Of a stretch of 13,795 nt of DNA, positions 1 through 13,795 are shown piece by piece; position 1 is the stretch's first letter; every line of letters begins with the position of its first letter. The stretch comes from Oscillospiraceae bacterium. Its GTDB lineage: Bacteria > Bacillota > Clostridia > Oscillospirales > Oscillospiraceae. The DNA lies in assembly GCA_017538775.1 (NCBI GenBank), contig JAFYIF010000218.1, positions 1 through 13,795 of the forward strand, written 5' to 3'. Both the position numbers and the translations under genes were made by a program. The notes beneath the pieces are model-generated. The model was given only the letters and a program-made list of their open reading frames with translations, made no database searches and had not been told where the DNA came from.

Positions 1-754
1 CGTCGGAGAGGATGTCCCCGAACATGTTGCTGGTCACCACCACGTCGAAGCGGGCGGGGTCCCGCACCAGCTGCATGGCGGCGTTGTCCACCAGCATGTC
101 GGACAGCTCCACGTCGGGGTAGTCCGCCGCCACGCGGTGGACCGTCTCCCGCCAGAGGCGGGAGGTCTCCAGCACGTTGGCCTTGTCGATGCTGACCACG
201 TTGCGCCGGCGCTTCCGGGCGGTCTCGAAGGCCACGCGGGCGATGCGCTCCACCTCCATGACGCTGTAGGCTTCGGTGTCATAGGCTTCCGGGCCGAACT
301 TGCCCTCTCTCCTGCCCCGCTCGCCGAAGTAGATGCCGCCGGTCAGCTCCCGGACGATCACCAGGTCGAAGCCCCGGGCGGCGATGTCGGGCCGCAGGGT
401 GCAGGCGTCCCGCAGGGCCTCGTAGATCTTGGCCGGGCGCAGGTTGGTGTAAAGGCCCAGGGCGTGCCGCAGCCCCAGCAGGGCCTTCTCCGGGCGGAGG
501 GCGGCGGGCAGGCTGTCCCACTTGGGGCCGCCCACCGCGCCCAGCAGCACGCTGTCGCTGTCCAGGCAGGTCTGCACGGTCTCCTCGGGCAGGGGGACGC
601 CCAGCTTATCGTAGGCGCAGCCTCCGGCCAGGGTCTCCGGGAAGCGGAAGCGGTGGCCGAAGCGCTGCCCGATCTTCTCCAGCACCTGCACGGCGCTGTC
701 CACGATCTCCGGGCCGATGCCGTCGCCCTTCACCAGGGCAATTTTGTATTCCAT
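1..754 (-). CDS. leuB: 3-isopropylmalate dehydrogenase, C-terminus cut by window edge
   Basis: LeuB oxidises and decarboxylates (2R,3S)-3-isopropylmalate with NAD+ to give 2-oxoisocaproate, the leucine precursor, in the cytoplasm. The open frame runs from an ATG at 754 off the left edge, so 251 residues are visible of a usual 350-360. Family landmarks are GDGIGPE near residue 10, GGPKWD at 75-80, LRPAKIY at 105-111, the signature RELTGGIYFGE at 135-145, the catalytic lysine in SIDKANVLE (K191), the aspartate in MLVDNAAM (D223), and the start of the metal-site motif SNMFGDILSD at 242-251. The Shine-Dalgarno AAAGGAGG overlaps the leuD stop codon, so the two genes are tightly linked. LeuB is the last visible gene of the operon; the missing third carries the rest of the nucleotide site. 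Confidence 0.97.
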   Translation of the reverse strand, partial: MEYKIALVKGDGIGPEIVDSAVQVLEKIGQRFGHRFRFPETLAGGCAYDKLGVPLPEETVQTCLDSDSVLLGAVGGPKWDSLPAALRPEKALLGLRHALGLYTNLRPAKIYEALRDACTLRPDIAARGFDLVIVRELTGGIYFGERGRREGKFGPEAYDTEAYSVMEVERIARVAFETARKRRRNVVSIDKANVLETSRLWRETVHRVAADYPDVELSDMLVDNAAMQLVRDPARFDVVVTSNMFGDILSD

Positions 755-767
755 GGCTGGGCCTCCT

Positions 768-1262
768 TTACTTCGCGTCCTGCCGCGCCTTGAGATAGGG
801 CAGCAGGCCGCCGCTTTCGATGATCTTGCCGATGAAGGCCGGGGGCGCGGCGGCCTGGAAGGTCTCGCCGCTGGTCTCATCGGTGATGAGGCCAGTGTTC
901 AGATCCACGCGGACCCGGTCCCCCGCCGCGATGCGCTCCGAGGCCTCCGGGCTCTCCAGGATCGGGAAGCCGATGTTGATGGCGTTGCGGTAAAAGATGC
1001 GGGCGAAGCTGGCGGCGATGACGCAGGACACGCCGCTGGCCTGGATGGCGATGGGGGCGTGTTCCCGGGAAGAGCCGCAGCCGAAGTTCCAGCCTCCCAC
1101 CATGATGTCACCGGGCTGGACCCGCCGGACAAAGGAGGAGTCGATGTCCTCCATGCAGTGCTGCGCCAGCTCCTCGGGAGAGGGGGCGTTCAGGTAGCGG
1201 GCGGGGATGATCACGTCGGTGTCCACATTGTCCCCGAATTTGAATACGGTTCCGTTCAGCAT
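768..1262 (-). CDS. leuD: 3-isopropylmalate dehydratase small subunit
   Basis: LeuD is the small (swivel) subunit that works with LeuC to isomerise 2-isopropylmalate to 3-isopropylmalate by dehydration and rehydration. The 164-residue product has the short size of archaeal and clostridial LeuD, not the roughly 200 residues of the enterobacterial protein. It shows [15 protein letters not shown] at 11-25, with the substrate-discriminating loop just after it, and the conserved [10 protein letters not shown] at 61-70. [15 protein letters not shown] follows at about 86-100. The ATG lies inside the end of leuC: leuC stops at 1256-1258 and leuD begins at 1262, a 7-nt overlap that suggests translational coupling. 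An AAGGAGGG ribosome site sits about 10 nt upstream, within leuC. It stops with TAA at 768-770. Confidence 0.97.
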
Positions 1263-2566
1263 GGGTTCAGTCCCTCCTTGTAGGGGCCGGCGTCCTCGAC
1301 GGCCCCGTCCAGTTCCGCCGGGTCGGCCAGGCAGCCGGCCACGGCGCTGGCCGCCGCCACGGCGGGGTTGGCCAGGATCACTTCGCTGCGGACGTGGCCC
1401 ATACGGCCCACAAAGTTGCGGTTCGTTGTAGCCACGGCCCGCTCCCCGGCGCTCATCACGCCCATGTGGCCGCCCAGGCAGGGGCCGCAGGTGGGGGTGG
1501 AGACCGCGCAGCCGGCCTCGATGAAGGTCTGCATCAGCCCTTCCTCCAGCGCCTGGAGCCAGACGGCCTGGGTCGCCGGGATGACGATGCAGCGGACGCC
1601 GGGGGCCACATGGCGTCCCTTCAGAATGGCAGCCGCCGCCCGCAGGTCGGAGATGCGCCCGTTGGTGCAGGAGCCGATGACCACCTGCTGGATGGGCAGG
1701 CCCTTCACCTGGTCCACGGTCTTTGTGTTGCTGGGCAGGTGGGGCAGGGAGACGGTGGGGCGCAGGGCGCTCAGGTCGATCTCCACAGTCCGGGTGTATT
1801 CCGCGTCCGCGTCGGCCTCATAGACCTTCACCGGGCGGGGGAAGCGGTCTTTGACATAGGCCAGGGTCTGCTCGTCCACCGGGAAGATGCCGTTTTTCGC
1901 CCCGGCTTCGATGGCCATGTTGGCGACGGTGAAGCGGTCGTCCATGCCAAGGGCGGCCACGCCCGGCCCGGTGAACTCCAGGGACTGATAGAGCGCCCCG
2001 TCCACCCCGATTTGGCCGATCAGGTGCAAAACCACGTCCTTGCCGCTGACGTAGGGCGGCAGCGTGCCGGTCAGCTCCACCCGAATGGCGGCGGGCACCT
2101 TGAACCAGTTCTCCCCGGCGGCCATGCCCGCGGCCATGTCGGTGCTGCCCACGCCGGTGGAAAAGGCCCCCAGCGCGCCGTAGGTGCAGGTGTGGCTGTC
2201 CGCGCCGATGACCAGGTCCCCGGGGCCCACCAGCCCCTGCTCCGGCAGCAGGGCGTGCTCGATGCCCGCCGCGCCGGTGTCATAGAGATGGGAGATGTGA
2301 TAGCGCTTGGCGAAGTCCCTGGCCGTGGCGCAGAGCTCCGCGGATTTGATGTCTTTGCAGGGGGTGTAGTGGTCCAGGACGATGACGATCTTCTCCGGGT
2401 CGAAGACGCGGGTGAATCCGGCCTTGTCGAAGACGCCCACGGCCACCGGGGTGGTCACGTCGTTGCCCAGGACCAGATCCAGCTTCGCCTCGATCAGGTC
2501 CCCCGCCCGGACGGAGGGGAGCCCGGCGTGGTCGGCCAGGATCTTCTGGGTCATGGTCATTCCCAT
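1256..2566 (-). CDS. leuC: 3-isopropylmalate dehydratase large subunit
   Basis: LeuC is the catalytic iron-sulfur subunit of isopropylmalate isomerase. The 436-residue length fits the shorter LeuC/homoaconitase-like group (about 420) better than the enterobacterial type (about 466). Cluster cysteines are visible in VIGSCTNGR (C300) and [11 protein letters not shown] (C360 and C363). Substrate-site motifs include DHYTP at 65-69 and [13 protein letters not shown] at 121-133. The start codon overlaps the leuA stop by one base (TAATG). In-frame ATGs also occur at 2560 and 2554; I chose 2566 because GGAG at 2577-2580 is spaced 10 nt from it. The cytoplasmic enzyme would carry an oxygen-sensitive [4Fe-4S] cluster, consistent with an anaerobe. 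The leuCD order and overlaps imply co-translation with leuD. Confidence 0.97.
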
Positions 2567-4113
2567 TAGGCGCTCGCTCCTTTCCTCTGCTCCGTGGCGG
2601 CGCAGAGCTTGTTGATGGCCTTGATGTAGGCGGTGATGGAGGCCTCCATGATGTCGGTGGAGAGGCCCTTGCCGGTGTAGGTCCGGCCCTCGCTCATCAG
2701 CTTGATGGTCACGTCGCCCAGGGTGTCCTTGCCCTCGGAGATGGAGTGGATGTTGTAGATGTCAAAGCTGTGGGGCGCGGGCTGGACGATCTTGTCGATG
2801 GCGTTGAAGGCCGCGTCGATGGGGCCGTCCCCCAGGCAGACATCCTCCTGCCGCACGCCGTCCCGCAGCAGGCTGACGGTGCAGGTGGCGGTGGTGAAGT
2901 TGCTGGTGTGGACGGAGAACCAGTCCAGCTGATAGCCGCCCTCGTCGGCGGTCTCCTCCGCCACGGTGCGCTGCTCGGCCAGGGCCTCCAGGTCCGCGTC
3001 GGTGACGGACTTCTTCTTGTCGCAGAGGAGCTTGAACTCCTCGAAGCAGGCCACAAGTTCCTCGGGCGAGAGGTTGTAGCCCAGGTATTTCAGCCGCTCC
3101 TCCACCGCGTGCTTGCCGGAGTGCTTGCCCAGGACGATGTTGTTCGTGTGGACGCCCACGGCCTCCGGGGTCAGGATCTCATAGGTGGCCTTGTTTGCCA
3201 GCACCCCGTGCTGGTGGATGCCCGACTCGTGGGCGAAGGCGTTGGCCCCGACGATGGGCTTGTTCAGCGGGGCCTTCTGGCCGATGACGGAGTAGACCGT
3301 CTTGCTGGTGCGGTTGATCTGGGTGGCGTCCAGGCGGGTGCTGAGCGGGAAGAGGTCGGGCCGGGTGCGCATGGCCATGACCACTTCCTCCAGCGCCGTG
3401 TTCCCGGCCCGCTCGCCCAGGCCGTTGACGGTGCACTCGATCTGCCGTGCCCCGCCCTGCACGCCGCCCAGGGCGTTGGCGACGGCCAGGCCCAGGTCGT
3501 TGTGGCAGTGGACGGAGAAGACCACGTCCTCCGCGCCGGGGACATGCTCGCGCAGGTATTCGATGCGGGCACGCATCTCCGCCGGGGTGGTGTAGCCCAC
3601 GGTGTCCGGGATGTTCAGGGTCGTGGCCCCGGCGCGGATGGCGACGGCGCAGACCTTCGAGAGAAAGTCCAGGTCGCTGCGGGTGGCGTCCTCGGCGGAG
3701 AACTGGATGTTGGAGCAGTAGCGCCGGGCGTAGGCCACCATGGCTGCCGTCTGTTCCAGCACTTCCTCCGGCGTCATGCGGAGCTTGTATTCCATGTGGA
3801 TGGGAGATGTGGCGATGAAGACGTGGATGCGCGGGTCGGCGGCCACTTTCACCGCCTCCCAGGCCGCGTCGATGTCCTTCGTATTGGCCCGGGCCAGGGA
3901 GGCCACGGTGCAGTCCCGGACGGCCTGGGCGATGGCGCGGACGGACTCGAAGTCCCCGGGGGAGGAGATGGCGAAGCCCGCCTCGATGATGTCCACCTTC
4001 ATGCGCTCCAGGGCGCGGGCCACTTCGATCTTCTCCCGCAGGTTCATGCTGCATCCGGGGGCCTGTTCGCCGTCCCGGAGGGTGGTGTCAAAGATTTTTA
4101 CCTGATCGCTCAT
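2566..4113 (-). CDS. leuA: 2-isopropylmalate synthase
   Basis: LeuA condenses acetyl-CoA with 2-oxoisovalerate, the committed step of leucine synthesis. From the ATG at 4113 the product is 515 residues, the normal full size. The TIM-barrel half shows [13 protein letters not shown] at 8-20 (metal Asp9, Arg13), HCHNDLGLA at 202-210 (metal-binding histidines), [14 protein letters not shown] at 230-243 and HESGIHQHG at 295-303. The C-terminal part, about 390-505, is the LeuA regulatory dimer domain that binds leucine for feedback inhibition; it is complete here. A TTG at 4131 could extend the frame by six residues, but the ribosome site AAAGGAG lies at 4119-4125, between that TTG and the ATG, so I use the ATG. 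The ilvD stop is 14 nt upstream. Confidence 0.97.
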
Positions 4114-4127
4114 GATTGCTCCTTTGC

Positions 4128-5789
4128 TCAAGTCAAAATCGCGCCCTTGTCGGCGGAGGAGACCAGCCGGGCGTAGCGGGCCAGATAGCCCGTGGTGACC
4201 TTCGGGGGCGGGCAGACCCAGGCTTTCCGGCGCTCGGCCAGCTCCTCGTCGCTGACGCGCAGGACAACGGAGCAGTTCGGGATGTCGATGGCGATGGTGT
4301 CCCCCTCCTGCACCAGGGCGATGTTGCCGCCGGCGGCGGCCTCCGGGCTGACGTGGCCGATGGCCGCGCCCCGGGTGGCCCCGGAAAAGCGCCCGTCGGT
4401 GATGAGGGCCACGCTGCCGCCCAGGCCCATGCCCACAATGGCGGAGGTGGGGTTCAGCATCTCCCGCATCCCCGGGCCGCCCCTGGGGCCCTCATAGCGG
4501 ATCACCACCACGTCGCCGGGGCGGATCTGTCGGCCATAGATGGCCCGGATGGCCTGGTCCTCGCTGTCAAAGACCCGCGCCGGCCCCTCGTGGCGCATCA
4601 TCTCCGGGGCCACGGCGCTTTGCTTGACCACGCAGCCGTCCGGGGCCAGGTTGCCCTTCAGCACGGCGATGCCGCCGTTGGGGGAATAGGGATTATCAAT
4701 GGGCCGGATGATCTCTGTGTCCCGGTTCTCCGCCCGGGCGATGTTCTCCGCCACGGTCTTGCCGGTGACGGTCATCAGGGAGGTGTCCAGCAGGCCCTTT
4801 TTGTCCAGCTCGTGCATCACGGCCATGACGCCGCCGGCCCGGTCCAGGTCCTCCATGAAGGTGTCCCCCGCCGGGGCCAGGTGGCAGAGGTTGGGGGTGG
4901 CAGCGCTGATGGCGTTGCTCTCGTCCAGGTCGATGCTCACCCCCGCCTCATGGGCGATGGCGGGCAGGTGCAGCATGGTGTTGGTGGAGCAGCCCAGGGC
5001 CATGTCCACGGTCTCCGCGTTGCGGAAGGCCGCCGCCGTCATGATGTCCCGGGGCCGGATGTCCCGGCGGACCAGCTCCATGACCTGCATCCCGGCCAGC
5101 TTTGCCAGGCGGACCCGGGCGGAGTAGGGCGCGGGGATGGTGCCGTTGCCGGGCAGGGCCATGCCGATGGCCTCCGTCAGGCAGTTCATGGAGTTGGCGG
5201 TGTACATGCCGGAGCAGGAGCCGCAGCTGGGGCAGGCGTTGGCGGTGTAGTCCTCCACCCCGGCCTCGTCCAGGGTCCCGGCGTGGTAGGCGCCCACGGC
5301 CTCGAACATGTGGCTCAGGCAGGTGCGCCGCCCGTCGCGGAGCCGTCCGGCCAGCATGGGGCCGCCGGAGACGAAGATGGTCGGCACGTTCACCCGGGCT
5401 GCGGCCATGAGCAGGCCGGGCACGTTCTTGTCGCAGTTGGGGATCATCACCAGGCCGTCAAACTGGTGGGCGATGGCCATGGCCTCGGTGCTGTCGGCGA
5501 TCAGGTCCCGCGTCACCAGGGAGTACTTCATGCCGATGTGCCCCATGGCGATGCCGTCGCAGACGGCGATGGCCGGGAACTCGATGGGCGTGCCCCCGGC
5601 GGCCCGGACCCCGGCCTTCACGGCCTCGGCCAGCTTGTCCAGGTTCATGTGGCCCGGGACGATCTCGTTGTAGGAGCTGACCACGCCGATGAGCGGGCGG
5701 CGCATCTCCTCTTCGGTCAGACCCAGGGCGTACATCAGGCTGCGGTTCGGGGCCCGTTCCACACCCTGCTTGATGTTGTCGGATAACAT
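4128..5789 (-). CDS. ilvD: dihydroxy-acid dehydratase
   Basis: IlvD dehydrates 2,3-dihydroxyisovalerate and 2,3-dihydroxy-3-methylvalerate to the 2-oxo acid precursors of valine/leucine and isoleucine. The 553-residue product is full length. Landmarks are NCDKNVPG with a cluster cysteine (C119), the [19 protein letters not shown] block at 186-203 (C192), GNGT at 214-217 and, near the C-terminus, [21 protein letters not shown]. Where plant and mycobacterial [2Fe-2S] enzymes carry a third cysteine (P-C-N), this protein reads VPGH at 44-47, as does E. coli IlvD. That places it with the oxygen-labile [4Fe-4S] group. The start ATG at 5787-5789 has AGGAGA at 5799-5804. The gene lies downstream of an intrinsic terminator, so it may be expressed at a different level from ilvBNC. 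Confidence 0.97.
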
Positions 5790-5809
5790 AGTGCAAAGTC
5801 TCCTGTTCT

Positions 5810-5827
5810 CCCGCTCCGGGGAGCGGG
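5810..5827 (-). promoter_or_regulatory. small GC hairpin just upstream of the ilvD ribosome site
   Basis: A perfect 7-bp inverted repeat (CCCGCTC / GAGCGGG, 4-nt loop) ends 5 nt before the ilvD Shine-Dalgarno. It repeats the core of the terminator hairpin directly upstream. In the transcript it could protect the 5' end of a processed ilvD-leu mRNA or affect ribosome loading; this role is inferred only from position. Confidence 0.4.
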
Positions 5828-5833
5828 TCCGAT

Positions 5834-5883
5834 AAAAAACGGGCGCAGTCCCGCCCGCTGCGGGAGCGGGCGGGATGCTGCGC
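5834..5883 (-). terminator. strong intrinsic terminator between ilvC and ilvD
   Basis: Just after the ilvC stop, the minus-strand RNA can form a long stem: 6 bp GCGCAG/CUGCGC (5878-5883 with 5843-5848), a 2-nt CA bulge, then 11 bp UCCCGCCCGCU/AGCGGGCGGGA (5865-5875 with 5849-5859) closing a 5-nt loop. Three bases later comes UUUUUU (5839-5834). This is a textbook Rho-independent terminator, but it sits inside an operon whose next gene is 45 nt further on. The opposite strand lacks a U-run after the stem, so it acts on minus-strand transcription. Confidence 0.85.
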
Positions 5884-5891
5884 TGAAATGA

Positions 5892-6911
5892 TTATTTGGA
5901 GGCGCTGTCCAGATCGGCGTCGTCCTTCCAGAGCATCTGCTCGCGCAGGCGCTTGCCGACGACCTCCATCGGATGACGGGCCAGGGCCGCGCGCTTGGAG
6001 TTGAAGAAGGTGCGGCCATTCTTGTTCTCCGCGATCCAGCGCCCGGCGAAGGAGCCGTCCTGGATGTCGCTGAGCACGGCGCGCATCCGGGCCTTGGTCT
6101 CCTCGTGGGGGATGACCCGGGGACCGGAGACGTACTCGCCGTACTCGGCGGTGTCGGAGATGGAGTAGTTCATGGCCGCCACGCCGCCCTTGTTGATCAG
6201 GTCGATGATGAGCTTCATCTCGTGGATGCACTCGAAGTAGGCGTTCTCCGGCTCGTAACCGGCCTCCACCAGCACCTCGAAGCCGCAGCGCATCAGATCC
6301 ACCACGCCGCCGCAGAGGACGGTCTGCTCGCCGAACAGGTCGGTCTCGGTCTCGTCGTGCATCGTGGTCTCCATGATGCCCGCCCGGGCGCCGCCGATGC
6401 CGGCGATGTAGGCCAGGGCGATGTCGCGGCACTTGCCGCTGGCGTCCTGCTCCACGGCGATCAGGCAGGGCACGCCCTTGCCCGCCACATACTGGCTGCG
6501 GACCGTGTGGCCGGGTCCCTTGGGGGCCGCCATGAACACGTCCACATTGGCGGGGGGCACGATGCGCTGATAGCGGATGTTGAAGCCGTGGGCGAAGGCA
6601 ATGGCCTTGCCTTCCGTCAGATAGGGGGCGATGTCGGCCTTGTACATGTCGGCCTGGTTCTCGTCGTTGATGAGGATCATGATGACATCGGCCTTCTGGG
6701 TGGCCTCAGGCACGGTCATCACCTCGAAGCCGTCCCGCTCGGCCACGGGCCAGCTCTTGCCGTTCTTCCGCAGACCCACGATCACCTGGCAGCCGGAGTC
6801 GCGCAGGTTCAGCGCATGGGCGTGGCCCTGGGAGCCGTAGCCGATGATGGCGACGGTCTTGCCGTCCAGCGCGCTCAGGTCGCAGTCCTTCTCATAGTAC
6901 ATCTTAGCCAT
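5892..6911 (-). CDS. ilvC: ketol-acid reductoisomerase, class I
   Basis: IlvC converts acetolactate or acetohydroxybutyrate to the 2,3-dihydroxy acids by alkyl migration and NADPH-dependent reduction. The 339 residues match the short class I family. The Rossmann motif [14 protein letters not shown] is at 23-36. The cofactor loop [10 protein letters not shown] (45-54) has an Arg and a Ser in the positions usual for NADPH-preferring enzymes. The catalytic region AHGFNI is at 107-112 and [11 protein letters not shown] at 128-138. Two-metal ligands are D191, E195, E227 and E231 ([12 protein letters not shown] and FECIHEM), with S252 in the MNYSIS segment. GGAG lies 9 nt before the ATG at 6911. 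The 43-nt gap to ilvN is unusually AT-rich for this region. A strong terminator follows the stop. Confidence 0.98.
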
Positions 6912-6954
6912 GATCCAGTTCTCCTTTATCGTTCTTAATTTTTATTATATGTGT

Positions 6955-7506
6955 TTATCGGTAATTCTTACCCAGATTGAACTCGTCCCGCTCCTTGGTC
7001 TCGGCGGTGATGGTCTCCAGGCCGCGCTCCATCGCCACGATGCCGGTCCGGGCCAGCTCCAGCAGCTCGAACTGCTCCAGAATGGCCTGGATCGCGGCGG
7101 TCTTGTTCTCGTCGCCGATCAGGGCGATGGTCAGAGAGCCGGTGGACACGTCGATGATGGAGGCGCGGAAGATGTTGGCGATCTGGATGACCTCCGTGCG
7201 CTTGGCCCCGGTCTCCGCCCGGACTTTCAGCAGAATCAGCTCCCGGCGGATGGAGCGCTGGGGGGACAGCAGCTTCACGGAGTGGACCGGGAAGAGCTTG
7301 CGGAGCTGGTTGCTCAGCAGCAGGGCGTGGTCCTCGTCGGCCAGCACCTCGATGGTGATGCGGGAGATGGCCGGGTCGTCGGTGGTGCCCACGGCCAGGG
7401 ACTCGATGTTGTAGCCCTTGCGGGAGAACAGGCGCGTCACCTGGGACAGCACCCCCGCCTGGTTGTCGACCAGCACGGCCATGCTGGTCCGTTTGATTTC
7501 GTCCAT
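6955..7506 (-). CDS. ilvN: acetolactate synthase regulatory (small) subunit
   Basis: This is the regulatory subunit of acetohydroxyacid synthase, which activates the IlvB catalytic subunit and confers feedback inhibition by valine. The 183-residue protein is slightly longer than the common 160-175. An N-terminal ACT domain spans about 7-80, with the ligand-loop motif VLVDNQAGVLSQVTRLFSRK and the following GYNIESLAVG. The C-terminal small-subunit domain covers about 85-160, with ELILLKVRA and IIDVSTGSLTIALIGD. The ATG at 7506 has AAAGGAG 6 nt upstream, and the ilvB stop (7522-7524) lies 15 nt upstream. It stops with TAA at 6955-6957. The name ilvH is also used for this gene in related bacteria. 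Confidence 0.96.
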   Translation of the reverse strand: MDEIKRTSMAVLVDNQAGVLSQVTRLFSRKGYNIESLAVGTTDDPAISRITIEVLADEDHALLLSNQLRKLFPVHSVKLLSPQRSIRRELILLKVRAETGAKRTEVIQIANIFRASIIDVSTGSLTIALIGDENKTAAIQAILEQFELLELARTGIVAMERGLETITAETKERDEFNLGKNYR

Positions 7507-7521: not shown

Positions 7522-9228
7522 TCAATCCAGCAGGAACTGGGTGATGTGGCTGCCGCCGCTGACCATGGGCCGCACCATCTCGTCCGTGTCGATGGCGCAG
7601 TCGATGACGAAGCCGTGGCCCCAGTCCAGGGCCTCGCGGGTGGCCGCCTCGAACTCCTCCACGTTGGTGACCCGGCGGCCCCGGAGGCCGTAGGCCTCGG
7701 CCAGTTTCACGAAGTCCGGGCCCCGGTCCAGGGTGGTCTGGTAGAAGCGCTTTTCATAGATCAGGTTCTGCCACTGGCGGACCATGCCCAGGGTGCGGTT
7801 GTCCAGGATGTAGGTGATGACCGGGATGTCATAGTGTTCCTCGGTGGACAGCTCGTTGCAGTTCATGCGGAAGGAGCCGTCGCCGGTGATGTGGATCACA
7901 GTCTTGTCCGGGTTGCCCACCTTGGCTCCCAGGGCGGCCCCCAGGCCGAAGCCCATGGTGCCGAAGCCGCCGGAGGTGATGAGCTGGCCGGGATAGTCGA
8001 AGTGGAAGTGCTGGATGGCCCACATCTGGTGCTGGCCCACGTCCGTGGCAACGATGGTGTCCGGGGGGAGCAGCTTGGCGATGGAGTTGAAAATTTGCTT
8101 GGGCGTCAGCTTGTCCGGCGCGTCGTCGTACTCGGTCTCGGTCTTGAAGGAGAAGACGTAGTCCTTCCAGGGCTTGTGGTCCTGCTGCTCCAGCTTCCGG
8201 TTCAGCCGGTCCAGCACCGCCCGGGCGTCGCCGATGATGTGGTGGTCCGTGCGGACGTTCTTGTTGATCTCGGAGCGGTCGATGTCGATCTGGACGATCT
8301 TCGCCTGGGAAGCGAAGCTGTCCGGCTTCAGGGCCACACGGTCGGAGAAGCGGCAGCCCACGGCGATCAGCAGGTCGCAGCCGTCGCAGGCCATGTTGCT
8401 GGCCTGGGTGCCGTGCATCCCCACCATGCCGGTGGCCAGGGGGCTGCGCCCCACGATGCCGCCGCCGCCCATGACGGTGATCGCCACGGGCGCGTCCACG
8501 ATCTCCGCGAAGCGGGTGAATTCCTCCTGGGCGCGGGAGCGGACCACGCCGCCGCCGCACAGCAGCATGGGCTTCTCTGCGGCGCGGATCATGTCCACCA
8601 GGGTGTCGATGTCCGCCTCGTTGGGCTCCGGGGCCTTGAACTCCTCCGCCGCCCGGGCCCGCATGGCCCGCAGCATCCCGTGCCGGGCGTGCTCGGACTT
8701 GGGCAGGGGCTCATAGACGGCCTTCGTGGCCGTGACGTTCTTGAGCATGTCGATCAGCACCGGGCCGGGCCGCCCGCTGCGGGCGATGGCGAAGCCTGCG
8801 CGCACCGCGTCGGCCAGCTCGTTCACGTCCTTCACCAGGTAGTTCCACTTGGTGATGGGCATGGAGATGCCGGTGATGTCCACCTCCTGGAAGGAGTCCT
8901 TGCCGATCAGGTTCTCCCCCACGTTGCAGGTGATGAAGACCACCGGGGAGGAGTCCATGTAGGCGGTGGCGATGCCGGTGGTGAGGTTGGTGGCGCCGGG
9001 GCCGCTGGTGGCGAAGCAGACGCCCACCTTGCCCGTGCTGCGGGCATAGCCGTCCGCCGCGTGGCTGGCCCCCTGCTCGTGGGCGGTCAGGATGTGGCGG
9101 ATGCGGTCAGAATAGCCATAGAGCGCGTCATAGACGTTCAGGATCGTGCCGCCGGGGTAGCCGAACACCGTGTCCACGCCCTGCTCCAGCAGACATTCGA
9201 TCAGAATTTGCGCGCCGGTCAGTTCCAT
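7522..9228 (-). CDS. ilvB: acetolactate synthase catalytic (large) subunit
   Basis: IlvB is the thiamin-diphosphate enzyme that joins pyruvate to a second pyruvate or to 2-oxobutyrate, the first shared step of branched-chain synthesis. The 568 residues are full length. The N-terminal cofactor domain has FGYPGG at 22-27 and the catalytic glutamate in AHEQGASHAADGYAR (E51). The central FAD/ADP-like domain follows at about 195-350. The C-terminal domain has ITGDGSFRMN (GDG at 449-451), the Mg-ligand asparagine N477 and the substrate-selecting tryptophan W486 in GMVRQWQ. D476 replaces the more usual first Asn of the NN pair, but the ligand itself is kept. The start at 9228 has AAAAGGAGG 8 nt upstream. 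It is the first enzyme gene after the attenuator leader. Confidence 0.97.
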   Translation of the reverse strand: MELTGAQILIECLLEQGVDTVFGYPGGTILNVYDALYGYSDRIRHILTAHEQGASHAADGYARSTGKVGVCFATSGPGATNLTTGIATAYMDSSPVVFITCNVGENLIGKDSFQEVDITGISMPITKWNYLVKDVNELADAVRAGFAIARSGRPGPVLIDMLKNVTATKAVYEPLPKSEHARHGMLRAMRARAAEEFKAPEPNEADIDTLVDMIRAAEKPMLLCGGGVVRSRAQEEFTRFAEIVDAPVAITVMGGGGIVGRSPLATGMVGMHGTQASNMACDGCDLLIAVGCRFSDRVALKPDSFASQAKIVQIDIDRSEINKNVRTDHHIIGDARAVLDRLNRKLEQQDHKPWKDYVFSFKTETEYDDAPDKLTPKQIFNSIAKLLPPDTIVATDVGQHQMWAIQHFHFDYPGQLITSGGFGTMGFGLGAALGAKVGNPDKTVIHITGDGSFRMNCNELSTEEHYDIPVITYILDNRTLGMVRQWQNLIYEKRFYQTTLDRGPDFVKLAEAYGLRGRRVTNVEEFEAATREALDWGHGFVIDCAIDTDEMVRPMVSGGSHITQFLLD

Positions 9229-9253
9229 TTGCCGGACCTCCTTTTGCGTTTTG

Positions 9254-9270
9254 GGCGGCAGCGCGCCGCC
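9254..9270 (-). promoter_or_regulatory. small hairpin between attenuator and ilvB ribosome site
   Basis: A perfect 6-bp inverted repeat (GGCGGC / GCCGCC with a 5-nt loop) follows the U-rich tail of the attenuator. It ends 8 nt before the AAAAGGAGG of ilvB. No U-run follows it, so it is not itself a terminator. A role in spacing or translation control is a guess. Confidence 0.35.
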
Positions 9271-9271
9271 G

Positions 9272-9320
9272 GAAAAGAATAAGACCCCGCCGTCTGGCTA
9301 AAAGCCCGACCGCTGGGTCT
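9272..9320 (-). terminator. attenuator-type terminator upstream of ilvB
   Basis: The minus-strand RNA pairs AGACCC (9320-9315) with GGGUCU (9287-9282). It then continues GC/GC, GUC/GAC and GGC/GCC with single mismatches between blocks, closing on a UUUUA loop. It is followed by the U-rich stretch UAUUCUUUU (9281-9273). The interrupted stem and broken U-run are weaker than the terminator after lysC, as expected for a regulated one. It lies between the leader peptide and ilvB. Confidence 0.65.
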
Positions 9321-9377
9321 GCACCGTTTGGGAATCCGTCTACCGGGGCTTCCCTTGTTCTCGCTTCCCGGTTCCGC

Positions 9378-9488
9378 TCACGCCCTGCAGCTTTGGGTAT
9401 GACTTTCAGCGCTATTCAGTTTCCCGCATACAACCAGCAGGTTCAGAATAACGCCCAGCAGACCCGGAAGCAACATCACAGCGCTCAT
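9378..9488 (-). CDS. leader peptide rich in leucine, valine and isoleucine
   Basis: A short open frame from ATG at 9488 to TGA at 9380-9378 encodes 36 residues. GAGG at 9496-9499 is 7 nt before the ATG, and the predicted promoter starts transcription about 30 nt upstream. Residues 4-20 contain 12 branched-chain amino acids (7 Leu, 4 Val, 1 Ile), including the runs LLPGLLGVIL and LLVV. The last 16 residues are polar with no such bias. In enteric and actinobacterial ilv operons, leader peptides of this sort stall ribosomes when charged tRNA is scarce and so prevent termination ahead of the structural genes; the same role is inferred here. The hydrophobic stretch could alternatively make this a small membrane protein, but position and terminator favour a leader. 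Confidence 0.75.
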   Translation of the reverse strand: MSAVMLLPGLLGVILNLLVVCGKLNSAESHTQSCRA

Positions 9489-9525
9489 AAGCGAACCTCG
9501 TCACAAGAATGGATAGATTGTTGTC

Positions 9526-9554
9526 ACTTTACTACGGCATCCGGGTAAAGTCAA
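9526..9554 (-). promoter_or_regulatory. sigma-A-type promoter of the ilv-leu operon
   Basis: TTGACT (9554-9549) and TAAAGT (9531-9526) are separated by exactly 17 nt. The -35 matches the consensus at five of six positions and the -10 at four of six. Transcription would start near 9519, leaving about 30 nt before the leader-peptide ATG. It lies about 90 nt downstream of the terminator of the preceding lysC operon, so ilvB has its own transcript. Confidence 0.75.
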
Positions 9555-9572
9555 GAAAAAATGCGTCCCTGG

Positions 9573-9584
9573 CCGAATTTTCGG
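9573..9584. promoter_or_regulatory. palindrome upstream of the ilv promoter (possible operator)
   Basis: A 12-bp symmetrical site, CCGAA-TT-TTCGG, centred about 25 bp upstream of the -35 element. Its AATTTTC matches one half of the CodY box, the branched-chain amino-acid and GTP sensor of Firmicutes, but the other half does not match. It may be a repressor or activator site, or chance. Confidence 0.25.
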
Positions 9585-9642
9585 TATGGTGCCGGACTTT
9601 TCCCGGATTTCTCCCGCCGGGATTGTGGGATATGCCCCGCGG

Positions 9643-9675
9643 AAAAAATGTCGGAGCCGCCGGGAGCGGCTCCGA
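9643..9675 (-). terminator. intrinsic terminator after lysC
   Basis: A perfect 10-bp stem (UCGGAGCCGC / GCGGCUCCGA, 9666-9675 with 9651-9660) closes a 5-nt loop and is followed by CA and UUUUUU (9648-9643) in minus-strand RNA. It starts 24 nt after the lysC stop codon and ends the aspartate-pathway operon before the ilv promoter. Confidence 0.88.
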
Positions 9676-9699
9676 AAAGTCGGATGTATGATGGGGGCT

Positions 9700-10179
9700 T
9701 CATTCCCCGTCGCCGAAAAAGCGCCGGTGGATCGCCTGGACGGCGGCGTCGGCCTCCGCCCGGCGCAGCAGGACGCTGAGCTTGATCTCGCTGGAGGCGA
9801 TCATCTGGATGTTCAGCCCCGCCTCCGCCAGAGCCTCGAACATCCGCACGGCCATGCCCGGGGCGTCCATCAGCCCCGCGCCCACGATGCTCACCTTCGC
9901 CACATCCGCGTCCACCGCCAGAGCGCGGTAGCCCAGGGCGGCGGCGTTGGCGTCCAGCAGGGCCCGGGCTTTCACCGCGTCGTCCCGGCGCAGGGTGAAA
10001 GACACGTCGCTGCGCCCCTCCGTCCCGACGGACTGGAGGATCAGGTCCACGTTGATGTCCGCGCCGCTGAGCAGGGCGAAAAGCCGCAGCGCCGCGCCGG
10101 GGCGGTCCGGGAGGCCCCGGACCGTGAAGCGGGCGATGTCCGCGTCCTTCGCCACGCCGCTGATGATCATGCGTTCCAT
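9700..10179 (-). other. internal in-frame start in lysC: predicted aspartokinase beta subunit
   Basis: Inside lysC, AAGGAGG (10197-10191) precedes an in-frame ATG (10179-10177) by 11 nt. Initiation there would give a 159-residue protein made only of the two ACT domains. B. subtilis aspartokinase II and C. glutamicum LysC make just such a beta subunit from an internal start, giving an alpha2-beta2 enzyme. Here the start is codon 246, which as I recall matches the Bacillus position closely. Confidence 0.7.
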
Positions 10180-10914
10180 CGGTGTGAGTTCCTCCTTCAC
10201 CACGGTGCCCGGCGCCCGGACAAAACTGGAGCGCACCTCCAGGTCCACGCCGTAGCGCTTTGCCAGCTCCACGCTGCGGTTGTGCAGCACCTGGTTGCCC
10301 AGGCTGGCCAGCTCCAGCATCTCGTCATAGCTGACGGCGGCCAGCTTTCTGGCCCCCGGGACGTGTCGCGGGTCGGCGGTGTAGACCCCCTCCACGTCGG
10401 TGTAGATCTGGCATTTGTCCGCGCCCAGGGCCGCCGCGATGGCCACGGCGGAGGTGTCGCTGCCGCCCCGGCCCAGGGTGGTCTGGTCCCCGGCCTCGTC
10501 GATGCCCTGGAAGCCGCAGACCAGCACGATCTTTCCGGCCTCCAGCTCCTGCAGCAGCCGCGCCCCGTCGATGCTGCGGATGCGGGCCGCCCCGTGGCGG
10601 CTGTCGGTGCGCAGACCGATCTGCCAGCCGGTGAGGCTGACTGTCGGCTGGCCCATGGCCTCCAGCGCCATAGCCATCAGCGCCACGCTGATCTGCTCGC
10701 CCACGCAGAGCAGGGCGTCCAGCTCCCGGGGGCTGGGAGCGGGGTTCAGGTCCCGGGCTTTTTCGATCAGCTCGTCCGTGGTGTCCCCCTGGGCGCTCAG
10801 CACCGCCACCACCTGGTGCCCGGCGCGGCGGGTCTCGGCGATGATGCCGGCCACCCGCTGTATTCTCGCGGCGTCAGCCACACTGCTGCCGCCGAATTTC
10901 TGCACGATGCGCAT
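9700..10914 (-). CDS. lysC: aspartate kinase (monofunctional, two C-terminal ACT domains)
   Basis: LysC phosphorylates aspartate, the entry step to lysine, threonine, methionine and, in spore formers, dipicolinate. The 404-residue length matches B. subtilis aspartokinase II and the corynebacterial enzyme. The kinase domain shows KFGGSSV at 6-12, GRGGSDTSAVAIAAALGA near 150 and YTDVEGVYTADPR shortly after. Two ACT domains follow from about 260: FTVRGLPDRPGAA through QSVGTEGRSDVSFTL, then VSIVGAGLMDAPGMA through MIASSEIKLSVLL. These would bind the feedback inhibitor (lysine, alone or with threonine). An in-frame ATG at codon 246 has a strong ribosome site, suggesting a separate beta subunit. 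The upstream start uses AAGGA 9 nt before the ATG. It is the last gene of the ACT-hom-lysC operon. Confidence 0.96.
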   Translation of the reverse strand: MRIVQKFGGSSVADAARIQRVAGIIAETRRAGHQVVAVLSAQGDTTDELIEKARDLNPAPSPRELDALLCVGEQISVALMAMALEAMGQPTVSLTGWQIGLRTDSRHGAARIRSIDGARLLQELEAGKIVLVCGFQGIDEAGDQTTLGRGGSDTSAVAIAAALGADKCQIYTDVEGVYTADPRHVPGARKLAAVSYDEMLELASLGNQVLHNRSVELAKRYGVDLEVRSSFVRAPGTVVKEELTPMERMIISGVAKDADIARFTVRGLPDRPGAALRLFALLSGADINVDLILQSVGTEGRSDVSFTLRRDDAVKARALLDANAAALGYRALAVDADVAKVSIVGAGLMDAPGMAVRMFEALAEAGLNIQMIASSEIKLSVLLRRAEADAAVQAIHRRFFGDGE

Positions 10915-12835: not shown

Positions 12836-12863
12836 TGCAAAAAGCGGAAAGGACGGGACGCAA

Positions 12864-13795
12864 ATGATCCAAATGTTGGGTGGGCAGACCCTGGCGCTGG
12901 AGCGGGGGGCCGTGGTGTGCGCCGGGGCGGCGGTGGGCGGCAAGCGGGAGGGGGAGGGACCTCTGGCCGCCTGTTTTGACGCCATCGCGGCGGACGGCTA
13001 TTTCGGGCAGAAGAGCTGGGAGGCGGCGGAGACCGCCATGCTGCGTCAGTGCTTTCAGACCGTCTGCGCCAAGGCGGGGCTGGAGCCGGGGGCGCTGCGC
13101 TATCTGATCTCCGGGGACCTGCAAAACCAGTGTACCGGCTCCGGCTACGCCTCCCGGGGGACGGGGCTGCCCTACTGGGGCCTGTACAGCGCCTGCGCCA
13201 CCATGGGGGAGGCCCTGGGCCTGGGGGCGCTGCTGTGTGAGCTGGGGGCGGAGCCGGTCTGCGCGATGACCTCCTCCCATTTCTGCTCTGCCGAGCGCAC
13301 CTTCCGCACGCCGCTGGAGTACGGCGCCCAGCGCAGCCCCACCGCCCAGTGGACGGTGACGGCGGCGGGGGCGGTCATCCTCCGCAGCGGCGGGACCGGA
13401 CCGCGCATCACCCACCTCACCACCGGGCGGGTGGTGGACGCGGGGGTCACGGACAGCGCCGACATGGGGGCGGCCATGGCCCCCGCCGCGCTGGACACGC
13501 TTCTATCCCATTTTGCTGATACCGGGCGAAAGCCCCTATATTACGACGCCATTGTGACCGGGGACCTGGGGGAGTTCGGGCGGCGCATCCTGGCGGAGCT
13601 GCTGCGGGCGGAGGGCTATGAGGCCCTCCCGGCGGTGTTCACCGACTGCGGCTGCCTGATCTACGACGCGGCGGCCCAGGACGTACACGCCGGAGGCAGC
13701 GGGGCCGGATGCAGCGCCGGGGTCTTCGCCGGGCACATCCTGGGCCAGCTCCGGGCCGGGCGCTGGCGGCGGGTCCTCTTCGCCCCCACCGGGGC
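12864..13795 (+). CDS. spoVAD: stage V sporulation protein AD, 3' end cut by window edge
   Basis: SpoVAD is a thiolase-fold protein that binds dipicolinic acid and works with SpoVAC and other SpoVA proteins at the inner forespore membrane to load, and later release, calcium dipicolinate. The open frame runs from ATG at 12864 to the right edge: 310 residues of a usual 335-345. Recognisable blocks are GPLAACFDAI near 32-41, QKSWEAAE near 49-56, LISGDLQNQ at 81-89, the thiolase-like cysteine in GLYSACATMGEAL (C111), TSSHFCSAERTFRTPLEYG at 136-154, DAGVTDSADMGAAMAPAA at 192-209 and AGGSGAGCSAGVFAGHI at 276-292. AAAGGA lies 10 nt upstream of the start. spoVAC, normally its upstream partner, is absent here; what follows lies outside the window. 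Confidence 0.95.
   Translation, partial: MIQMLGGQTLALERGAVVCAGAAVGGKREGEGPLAACFDAIAADGYFGQKSWEAAETAMLRQCFQTVCAKAGLEPGALRYLISGDLQNQCTGSGYASRGTGLPYWGLYSACATMGEALGLGALLCELGAEPVCAMTSSHFCSAERTFRTPLEYGAQRSPTAQWTVTAAGAVILRSGGTGPRITHLTTGRVVDAGVTDSADMGAAMAPAALDTLLSHFADTGRKPLYYDAIVTGDLGEFGRRILAELLRAEGYEALPAVFTDCGCLIYDAAAQDVHAGGSGAGCSAGVFAGHILGQLRAGRWRRVLFAPTG

Follow-up and report, generated by a model that had tools for sequence, protein, structure and literature searches.

The window, i.e. the whole 13,795-nt stretch of DNA analyzed here, belongs to a genome assembly of 1.83 Mb in 360 contigs and carries an operon for branched-chain amino acid (BCAA) synthesis on its minus strand. The first gene of the operon is ilvB (7522-9228, minus strand), encoding the acetolactate synthase large subunit (TIGR00118, over cut-off), followed by ilvN, ilvC, ilvD, leuA, leuC, leuD and leuB (2-7506, minus strand; NCBIfam), with leuB cut by the window end. 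The ilvB, ilvN, ilvC, ilvD, leuA, leuC and leuB assignments are all above the NCBIfam curated cut-offs; leuD is above the subfamily cut-off of TIGR02087 and just below that of the equivalog TIGR02084 (240 vs 245.85). A terminator-like hairpin (9651-9675, minus strand) lies between the monofunctional aspartate kinase gene (9700-10914, minus strand) and the ilv leader, suggesting that the leader begins its own transcription unit. The spoVAD-like gene (12855-13793, plus strand), divergent from the amino acid genes, scores a little below the NCBIfam cut-off for stage V sporulation protein AD and is truncated by the end of the window; its presence fits a spore-forming host.

Upstream of ilvB, the minus strand contains a frame of 36 codons plus stop (9488-9378), MSAVMLLPGLLGVILNLLVVCGKLNSAESHTQSCRA, with counterparts in 23 other aligned loci. 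The peptide has 13 Leu/Val/Ile residues (8 Leu, 4 Val, 1 Ile), and 12 of them fall within residues 4-20. When the 470 nt 5' of ilvB were shuffled 5,000 times with dinucleotides preserved, no shuffle yielded on this strand an ATG-initiated frame with 12 or more Leu/Val/Ile in 17 residues. GAGG (9496-9499, minus strand), the ribosome-binding site of the leader, stands 8-11 nt 5' of the ATG. The sigma-70-type promoter-like site TTGACT-17-TAAAGT (9526-9554, minus strand) matches 9 of 12 consensus positions and was the single site found by the promoter scan in 1601 nt, vs 0.2 expected; TAAAGT is present at the same place in loci L084 and L085. The sequence-only reading had described the frame with its own ribosome site and its 12 branched-chain residues correctly, and its distance of about 30 nt from the promoter was roughly right, with 37 nt measured from the end of the site to the ATG.

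The intrinsic terminator hairpin (9320-9282, minus strand) is followed by the U-rich tract TTATTCTTTT (9282-9273, minus strand). It has 11 pairs and three mismatches in our own hairpin finder and is also in the computed fold; it was absent from the output of a simple terminator scan, probably because of the mismatches in the stem. The leader frame is followed by a terminator and then by ilvBNCD-leuACDB, as had been proposed from the letters. The fold of the whole leader is only modestly better than that of shuffles (z -1.78, 8/200 as good).

Named contigs supplied IlvB loci of relatives (the best 80 of at least 597), and further loci came from genomes at genus, family and order level. Short Leu/Val/Ile-rich frames were detected 217-367 nt 5' of ilvB in two more genomes of the same genus, as well as in further genera and further families of the order. 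The aligned set comprises 24 loci including that of the window (L083); L141 (identical to L003), L214-L216 (near-copies of L213 and L015) and the doubtful L096 were left out. In all 24, a ribosome site precedes a short frame in which the amino acids of the pathway are abundant. The check in relatives suggested by the sequence-only reading therefore came out in its favor: frame and ribosome site recur, the peptide otherwise drifts, and across genera it is conserved only in Leu/Val/Ile content. Within one genus the synonymous bias is weak and uninformative (17 synonymous and 28 nonsynonymous changes). A search for plasmid copies gave no match. L096 was leader-like by eye, but unmatched by the covariance model, and its census class is neither; it is in no pairing test and was kept as a row of alignment A1 and in the leader group of the tree.

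For the census, 400 genomes of the family were searched, and all upstream regions of the 124 with an ilvB match at E <=1e-240 were classed. The leader class was defined by an ATG frame with 8 or more Leu/Val/Ile in 14 residues and a 4/6 match to the ribosome site, 150-400 nt before ilvB; 10 of 2,400 shuffled regions passed. We detected the T-box pattern in 62 loci, the leader in 16, neither in 46 and both in none. Six of the regions fell below 600 nt; among these, L188 (classed neither) has 142 nt, too few for a judgement. Two of the five ilvB-bearing genomes placed in the genus of the window lack the leader. The ilvB genes of L086 and L087, both placed in this genus, have about 70% identity and neither leader nor T-box pattern, and their IlvB proteins group apart from that of the window in the tree, hinting at possible gene transfer. 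In the 250 nt before ilvB of L007/L151, L152 and L153 we saw promoter-like sequence, then a terminator-like hairpin with a U-run, and no leader frame; these hairpins may be remnants of a leader since lost, or a different control element. On the well-supported branches of a tree of 70 IlvB proteins the leader label changes at least six times and the T-box label at least four times; we do not claim these as numbers of leader/T-box switches because ilvB transfer between lineages is possible.

The conserved hairpin, a conserved strand (Q) and the terminator were aligned by MAFFT, with inputs running from the ATG or from arm 1 to the terminator. Arm 1 of the hairpin, GGCGTTATTC (9455-9446, minus strand), holds the control codons GTT ATT (Val-Ile) and pairs with arm 2, GAATAGCGCT (9417-9408, minus strand), as the default hairpin. 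The antiterminator strand Q, GCTGAAAGTCATACCC (9410-9395, minus strand; consensus among leaders GCUGAAAGUYRUGYCC), shares its first three bases with the end of arm 2. Its partner is the apical loop of the terminator and then the 5' arm, usually across an internal loop. In the window, the apical loop and upper 5' arm (9311-9297) offer ten consecutive pairs, 9410-9401 with 9297-9306, plus ACC:GGU (GGT at 9309-9311). The exclusivity between Q and arm 2 owes partly to the shorter ACC:GGU pairing: the overlap is three bases, and the longest pairing of Q is with the terminator loop.

Covariation was measured by a permutation test, in which the segment of each leader was scored on its own terminator vs the terminators of the others, in 20 non-redundant leaders (the 24 aligned minus four near-copies). 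The first 11 nt of Q fit their own terminators far better (cognate -11.59 vs permuted -7.03 kcal/mol, z -8.3, 0/20,000), as do all 16 nt (z -7.7, 0/20,000 permutations as good). The same holds for arm 1 with arm 2 (z -6.9, 0/20,000) and for the two terminator arms (z -5.0, 0/20,000). Control segments on the terminator gave z 0.6 (16 nt before Q), 0.8 (arm 1), 1.2 (hairpin interior) and -0.1 (nt 27-43 after the Q start), and the segment adjoining Q, nt 11-27, gave z -1.8 (760/20,000). The Q starts in the 24 leaders had been placed by hand after complementarity had been noticed in some. An unanchored version with whole leaders gave -24.8 for cognate vs -21.2 for permuted pairs (about z -4.9, 0/20,000), with the own terminator ranked 11th or lower of 20 in L090, L003, L004, L147 and L220. 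In the unanchored duplex search the best duplex fell outside Q in 6 of 22 leaders (that of the window, L084, L085, L096, L098 and L146), and therefore anchored segments and control segments were used.

Two-sided changes occur in 8 of the 10 arm 1-arm 2 pairs, and the covariation score is 0.369 vs 0.190 in shuffles (0/500) and at most 0.158 when the arms are slid. Covarying Q/terminator pairs are GCUGAAAGUC with GGCUUUUAGC in the window, GCCAAAAGCU with AGCUUUUGGC in L095, CAAUUAGUCA with UGACUGAUUG in L094, CGAAAAGUCA with UGACUUUUCG in L149 and GUUAAUGUU with AACAUUAAC in L217. Comparison between leaders backs the alternative 1:2, 2:3 and 3:4 pairings, and the putative three-part switch (arm 1:arm 2, Q:terminator and the terminator itself) is supported by covariation.

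A covariance model of the hairpin plus Q (R1) matched at E <=0.01 in 24 of 394 genomes of the order and 21 of 391 of the class. We examined 33 loci, excluding training loci and their near-copies; the match in genome G1023 was left out, as it had no locus. Ten of the 33 lie directly before ilvB or leuA-like genes (tblastn) and were accepted on this neighbor, which is thus a selection criterion; the other 23 were rejected, with no ilvB or leuA in the fetched stretch. The best rejected locus (L249, E 1.5e-5) outscores the weakest accepted one (L253, E 6.2e-4), so R1 alone is not specific. All ten accepted loci have a short frame across the hairpin with 7 to 12 Leu/Val/Ile in 14 residues, eight of them with at least 8. 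Short frames with 6 to 8 in 14 were also found in 9 of the 23 rejected loci (8 in three of them), and therefore the frame alone does not separate accepted from rejected. In the ten accepted leaders, with Q placed by the model and not by eye and terminators picked by rule, Q again fits its own terminator (11 nt, z -4.0, 1/20,000; 16 nt, z -4.4, 0/20,000).

The training set covers the families f1, f7, f19 and f20 (labels are anonymous), and the ten accepted loci come from f1, f10, f13, f20 and f23 of the order and from f36 and f76 of other orders. The leader is found in seven families of the order, before ilvB in six and before leuA in f13. In f36 and f76 the downstream gene is leuA-like by tblastn, and both leuA-like genes tested (L260 and L261) have the Pfam HMGL-like domain. 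A second model, R2, detected three more loci before leuA-like genes in f36, with the frame seen in L278 and L279; the contig of L280 ends at the hairpin, leaving its frame unreadable. R2 matched 6 of 70 genomes in f36, before a leuA-like gene in 5 of the 6, and 4 of 110 in f23, before ilvB in 1 of the 4. The alignment behind R2 (A5) misplaces arm 1 in L248 and L253; alignment A4 contains antisense matches of the hairpin and was excluded. In genome G673 the leader (L246 and L218) precedes leuA and is separated by about 4.6 kb from ilvB further downstream, which lacks both the leader and the T-box pattern; here the element may have remained at, or been transferred to, the head of another operon. 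In genome G087 the leader (L253) precedes a second, 40% identical acetolactate synthase gene, which lies before the main ilvB.

We suggest that the leader is a classical ribosome-mediated transcription attenuator sensing charged Leu-, Val- and Ile-tRNA, with a probability of about 0.9. The frame, its codon content, the three covarying pairings, the terminator and the operon are seen in silico. The ilvBNCD-leuACDB genes in the window make the amino acids of the control codons, and ilvB or leuA-like genes follow in the other members. The sequence-only reading had arrived at the same kind of regulation; the covarying terminator/antiterminator system, which it had not noticed, now supports it.

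From these elements we infer translation of the frame, ribosome stalling, termination and the order of folding and, likewise, any dominance of one of the three amino acids. RNA polymerase would transcribe the leader while a ribosome begins the 36-codon peptide. With ample charged Leu-, Val- and Ile-tRNA the ribosome would clear the control codons, and arm 1 (GGCGUUAUUC) would pair with arm 2 (GAAUAGCGCU), or the ribosome would cover arm 2. Q would then fail to invade, the terminator at 9320-9282 would fold and transcription would end before ilvB. If any one of the three tRNAs were uncharged, the ribosome would stall at the control codons that lie within and near arm 1, leaving arm 2 and Q free; Q could then pair with the emerging terminator loop and 5' arm, and the polymerase would read on into ilvBNCD-leuACDB.

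Folding of the window leader with no ribosome gave arm 1-arm 2 plus terminator-zone pairs as the minimum-energy fold. A stalled ribosome was simulated by removing arm 1 and the ribosome footprint, with the 3' arm of the terminator not yet made. Pairs were counted crudely by zone, the terminator zone being the last 50 nt. With the ribosome stalled in this way and the terminator unfinished, 17 of 24 leaders have Q paired to this zone, vs 4 of 24 with no ribosome; the Q pairing is absent from the other 7 of the 24. With the complete terminator, terminator-zone pairs persist in 24/24 minimum-energy folds with or without the stalled ribosome, and therefore read-through would have to be kinetic, during transcription. 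Other attenuators likewise act during transcription.

The best surviving alternative is a riboswitch or other RNA sensor, with a metabolite or protein as the ligand of Q and the arm 1/arm 2 hairpin, and with an incidental frame. Q and the hairpin are indeed conserved as RNA: Q was found in all three reading frames across the 24 loci, and the stop codon of the frame precedes Q in five of them (L003, L085, L010, L147 and L148). However, the hairpin interior is variable in length and sequence, unlike an aptamer, and at several Q positions it is the pairing that is conserved, whatever the base. In 24/24 loci the control codon lies in frame, at six distances from the ATG (26 to 50 nt), a count biased upward since the leaders were chosen partly for Leu/Val/Ile density; the ten leaders found by the model, sought regardless of frame, also have the Leu/Val/Ile-rich frame across the hairpin. 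We consider such a sensor improbable.

Still less probable is regulation that is genuine but responds to overall translational status, not to specific amino acids. The codons cover three amino acids in varied order, as such sensing would allow, but at the aligned control position all 20 non-redundant leaders have a Leu, Val or Ile codon (Ile in 18, Leu or Val in the remaining two), 18/20 also have one three codons earlier, and the accepted members, chosen on this neighbor, are confined to sites before ilvB or leuA-like genes. A small hydrophobic membrane peptide with its own function and an unrelated terminator, for which the N-terminal half would be hydrophobic enough to form a predicted membrane helix, is equally hard to sustain when nothing but the Leu/Val/Ile content of the peptide is kept across genera, the frame is tied to arm 1 and three pairings covary. 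A degenerate or divergent T-box leader, common as the T-box pattern is before ilvB in these relatives, has hardly any chance given that Rfam finds none in the window or at the leader in the other leader loci and that the two elements never occur together in the 124 census loci.

T-boxes detect uncharged tRNA and control a terminator. The sequence-only reading saw no T-box at the leader, and this was borne out: there was no Rfam match in the window at the gathering score, and no T-box was among the five weak matches (E up to 10) in 9150-9720. RF00230 gave no match at the leader across the 37 loci scanned (24 aligned, that of the window included, ten found by R1 and three from R2), while 22 of the 24 pattern-positive loci used as positive controls scored above the Rfam cut-off (L107 and L166 below). 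Among 4227 Rfam families, in which named motifs such as ilvB-OMG may not all be included, we found no match at the leader in the 37 loci. A BjrC80 match upstream of the leader (22.4 bits vs a cut-off of 80, E 0.037) was taken as chance. Elsewhere in the genome of the window two T-box matches, L001 and L002, score 63 and 42.9 bits, below the cut-off of 93, and precede frames that we take to resemble pheS and cysE; T-boxes are probably in use in this genome, only not at ilvB. The Rfam T-boxes at L259:229-471 and L279:170-417 (both minus strand) lie on the opposite strand, more than 1 kb from the leader, and belong to other genes of these genomes that use T-boxes.

The result provides a covariation-supported leader-peptide attenuator for Oscillospiraceae-type bacteria and their relatives, whose BCAA operons would otherwise be presumed T-box-dependent. 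We slightly favor the view that the leaders form one old attenuator family, in which the conserved Q, in its covarying variants, would seize the terminator loop, present in several orders of Clostridia at ilvB and leuA and repeatedly exchanged with the T-box. In our sample ilvB is headed by a T-box or by the leader and never by both, which makes the replacement of one tRNA-sensing strategy by another directly testable. The RNA model, if combined with the neighboring gene, aids the annotation of BCAA control in uncultured gut genomes.

Leader-peptide attenuation of this type had been called seldom described. For Clostridia we found no paper on the leader RNA or on BCAA leader-peptide attenuation in the open-access literature (most subscription papers are outside this scope). 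The phrase needs trimming for Bacilli: according to PMC5794164 and PMC6123439, ribosome-mediated BCAA attenuation is reported for S. aureus and for Listeria, with predictions for Lactococcus and Streptococcus. Other sources are a motif survey of 26 genomes (PMC8632094), attenuation known in Actinobacteria (PMC1262725) and histidine leader peptides that replace T-boxes in bacilli (PMC2965389).

The E. coli ilvB and ilvGMEDA attenuators, as described in PMC6123439, share with this leader the short Leu/Val/Ile-rich peptide, the alternative hairpins, the terminator and the BCAA operon. Compared by description, our leader differs from them in that the terminator loop is the main partner of its conserved strand, and in having leu genes within the same operon. 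The S. aureus ilvD attenuator has a leucine-rich peptide of 26 residues and an antiterminator proposed from folding, with supporting mutants (PMC5794164). It is likewise a leader peptide with a terminator and without a T-box at a Firmicute BCAA operon, and differs in its class (Bacilli), its gene (ilvD) and the length of its peptide. The ilvB-II, ilvB-OMG and ilvB motifs, RNA elements with BCAA-rich uORFs before ilvB, are proposed attenuators (PMC10272879) and resemble our leader in combining an RNA element with such a frame. By description, ilvB-II belongs to Corynebacterium, the ilvB motif to Leptospira and ilvB-OMG to 41 sequences of various phyla; our Rfam scans of the leader loci, with a family list that may lack some of these, e.g. 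ilvB-OMG, matched no ilvB-type motif. The T-box (RF00230) heads the same gene in close relatives and differs in sensing the tRNA directly, without translation. Taken together, the kind of switch, and even the replacement of T-boxes by leader peptides in Firmicutes, is already known, while this leader family and its lineage appear new within the open-access literature.
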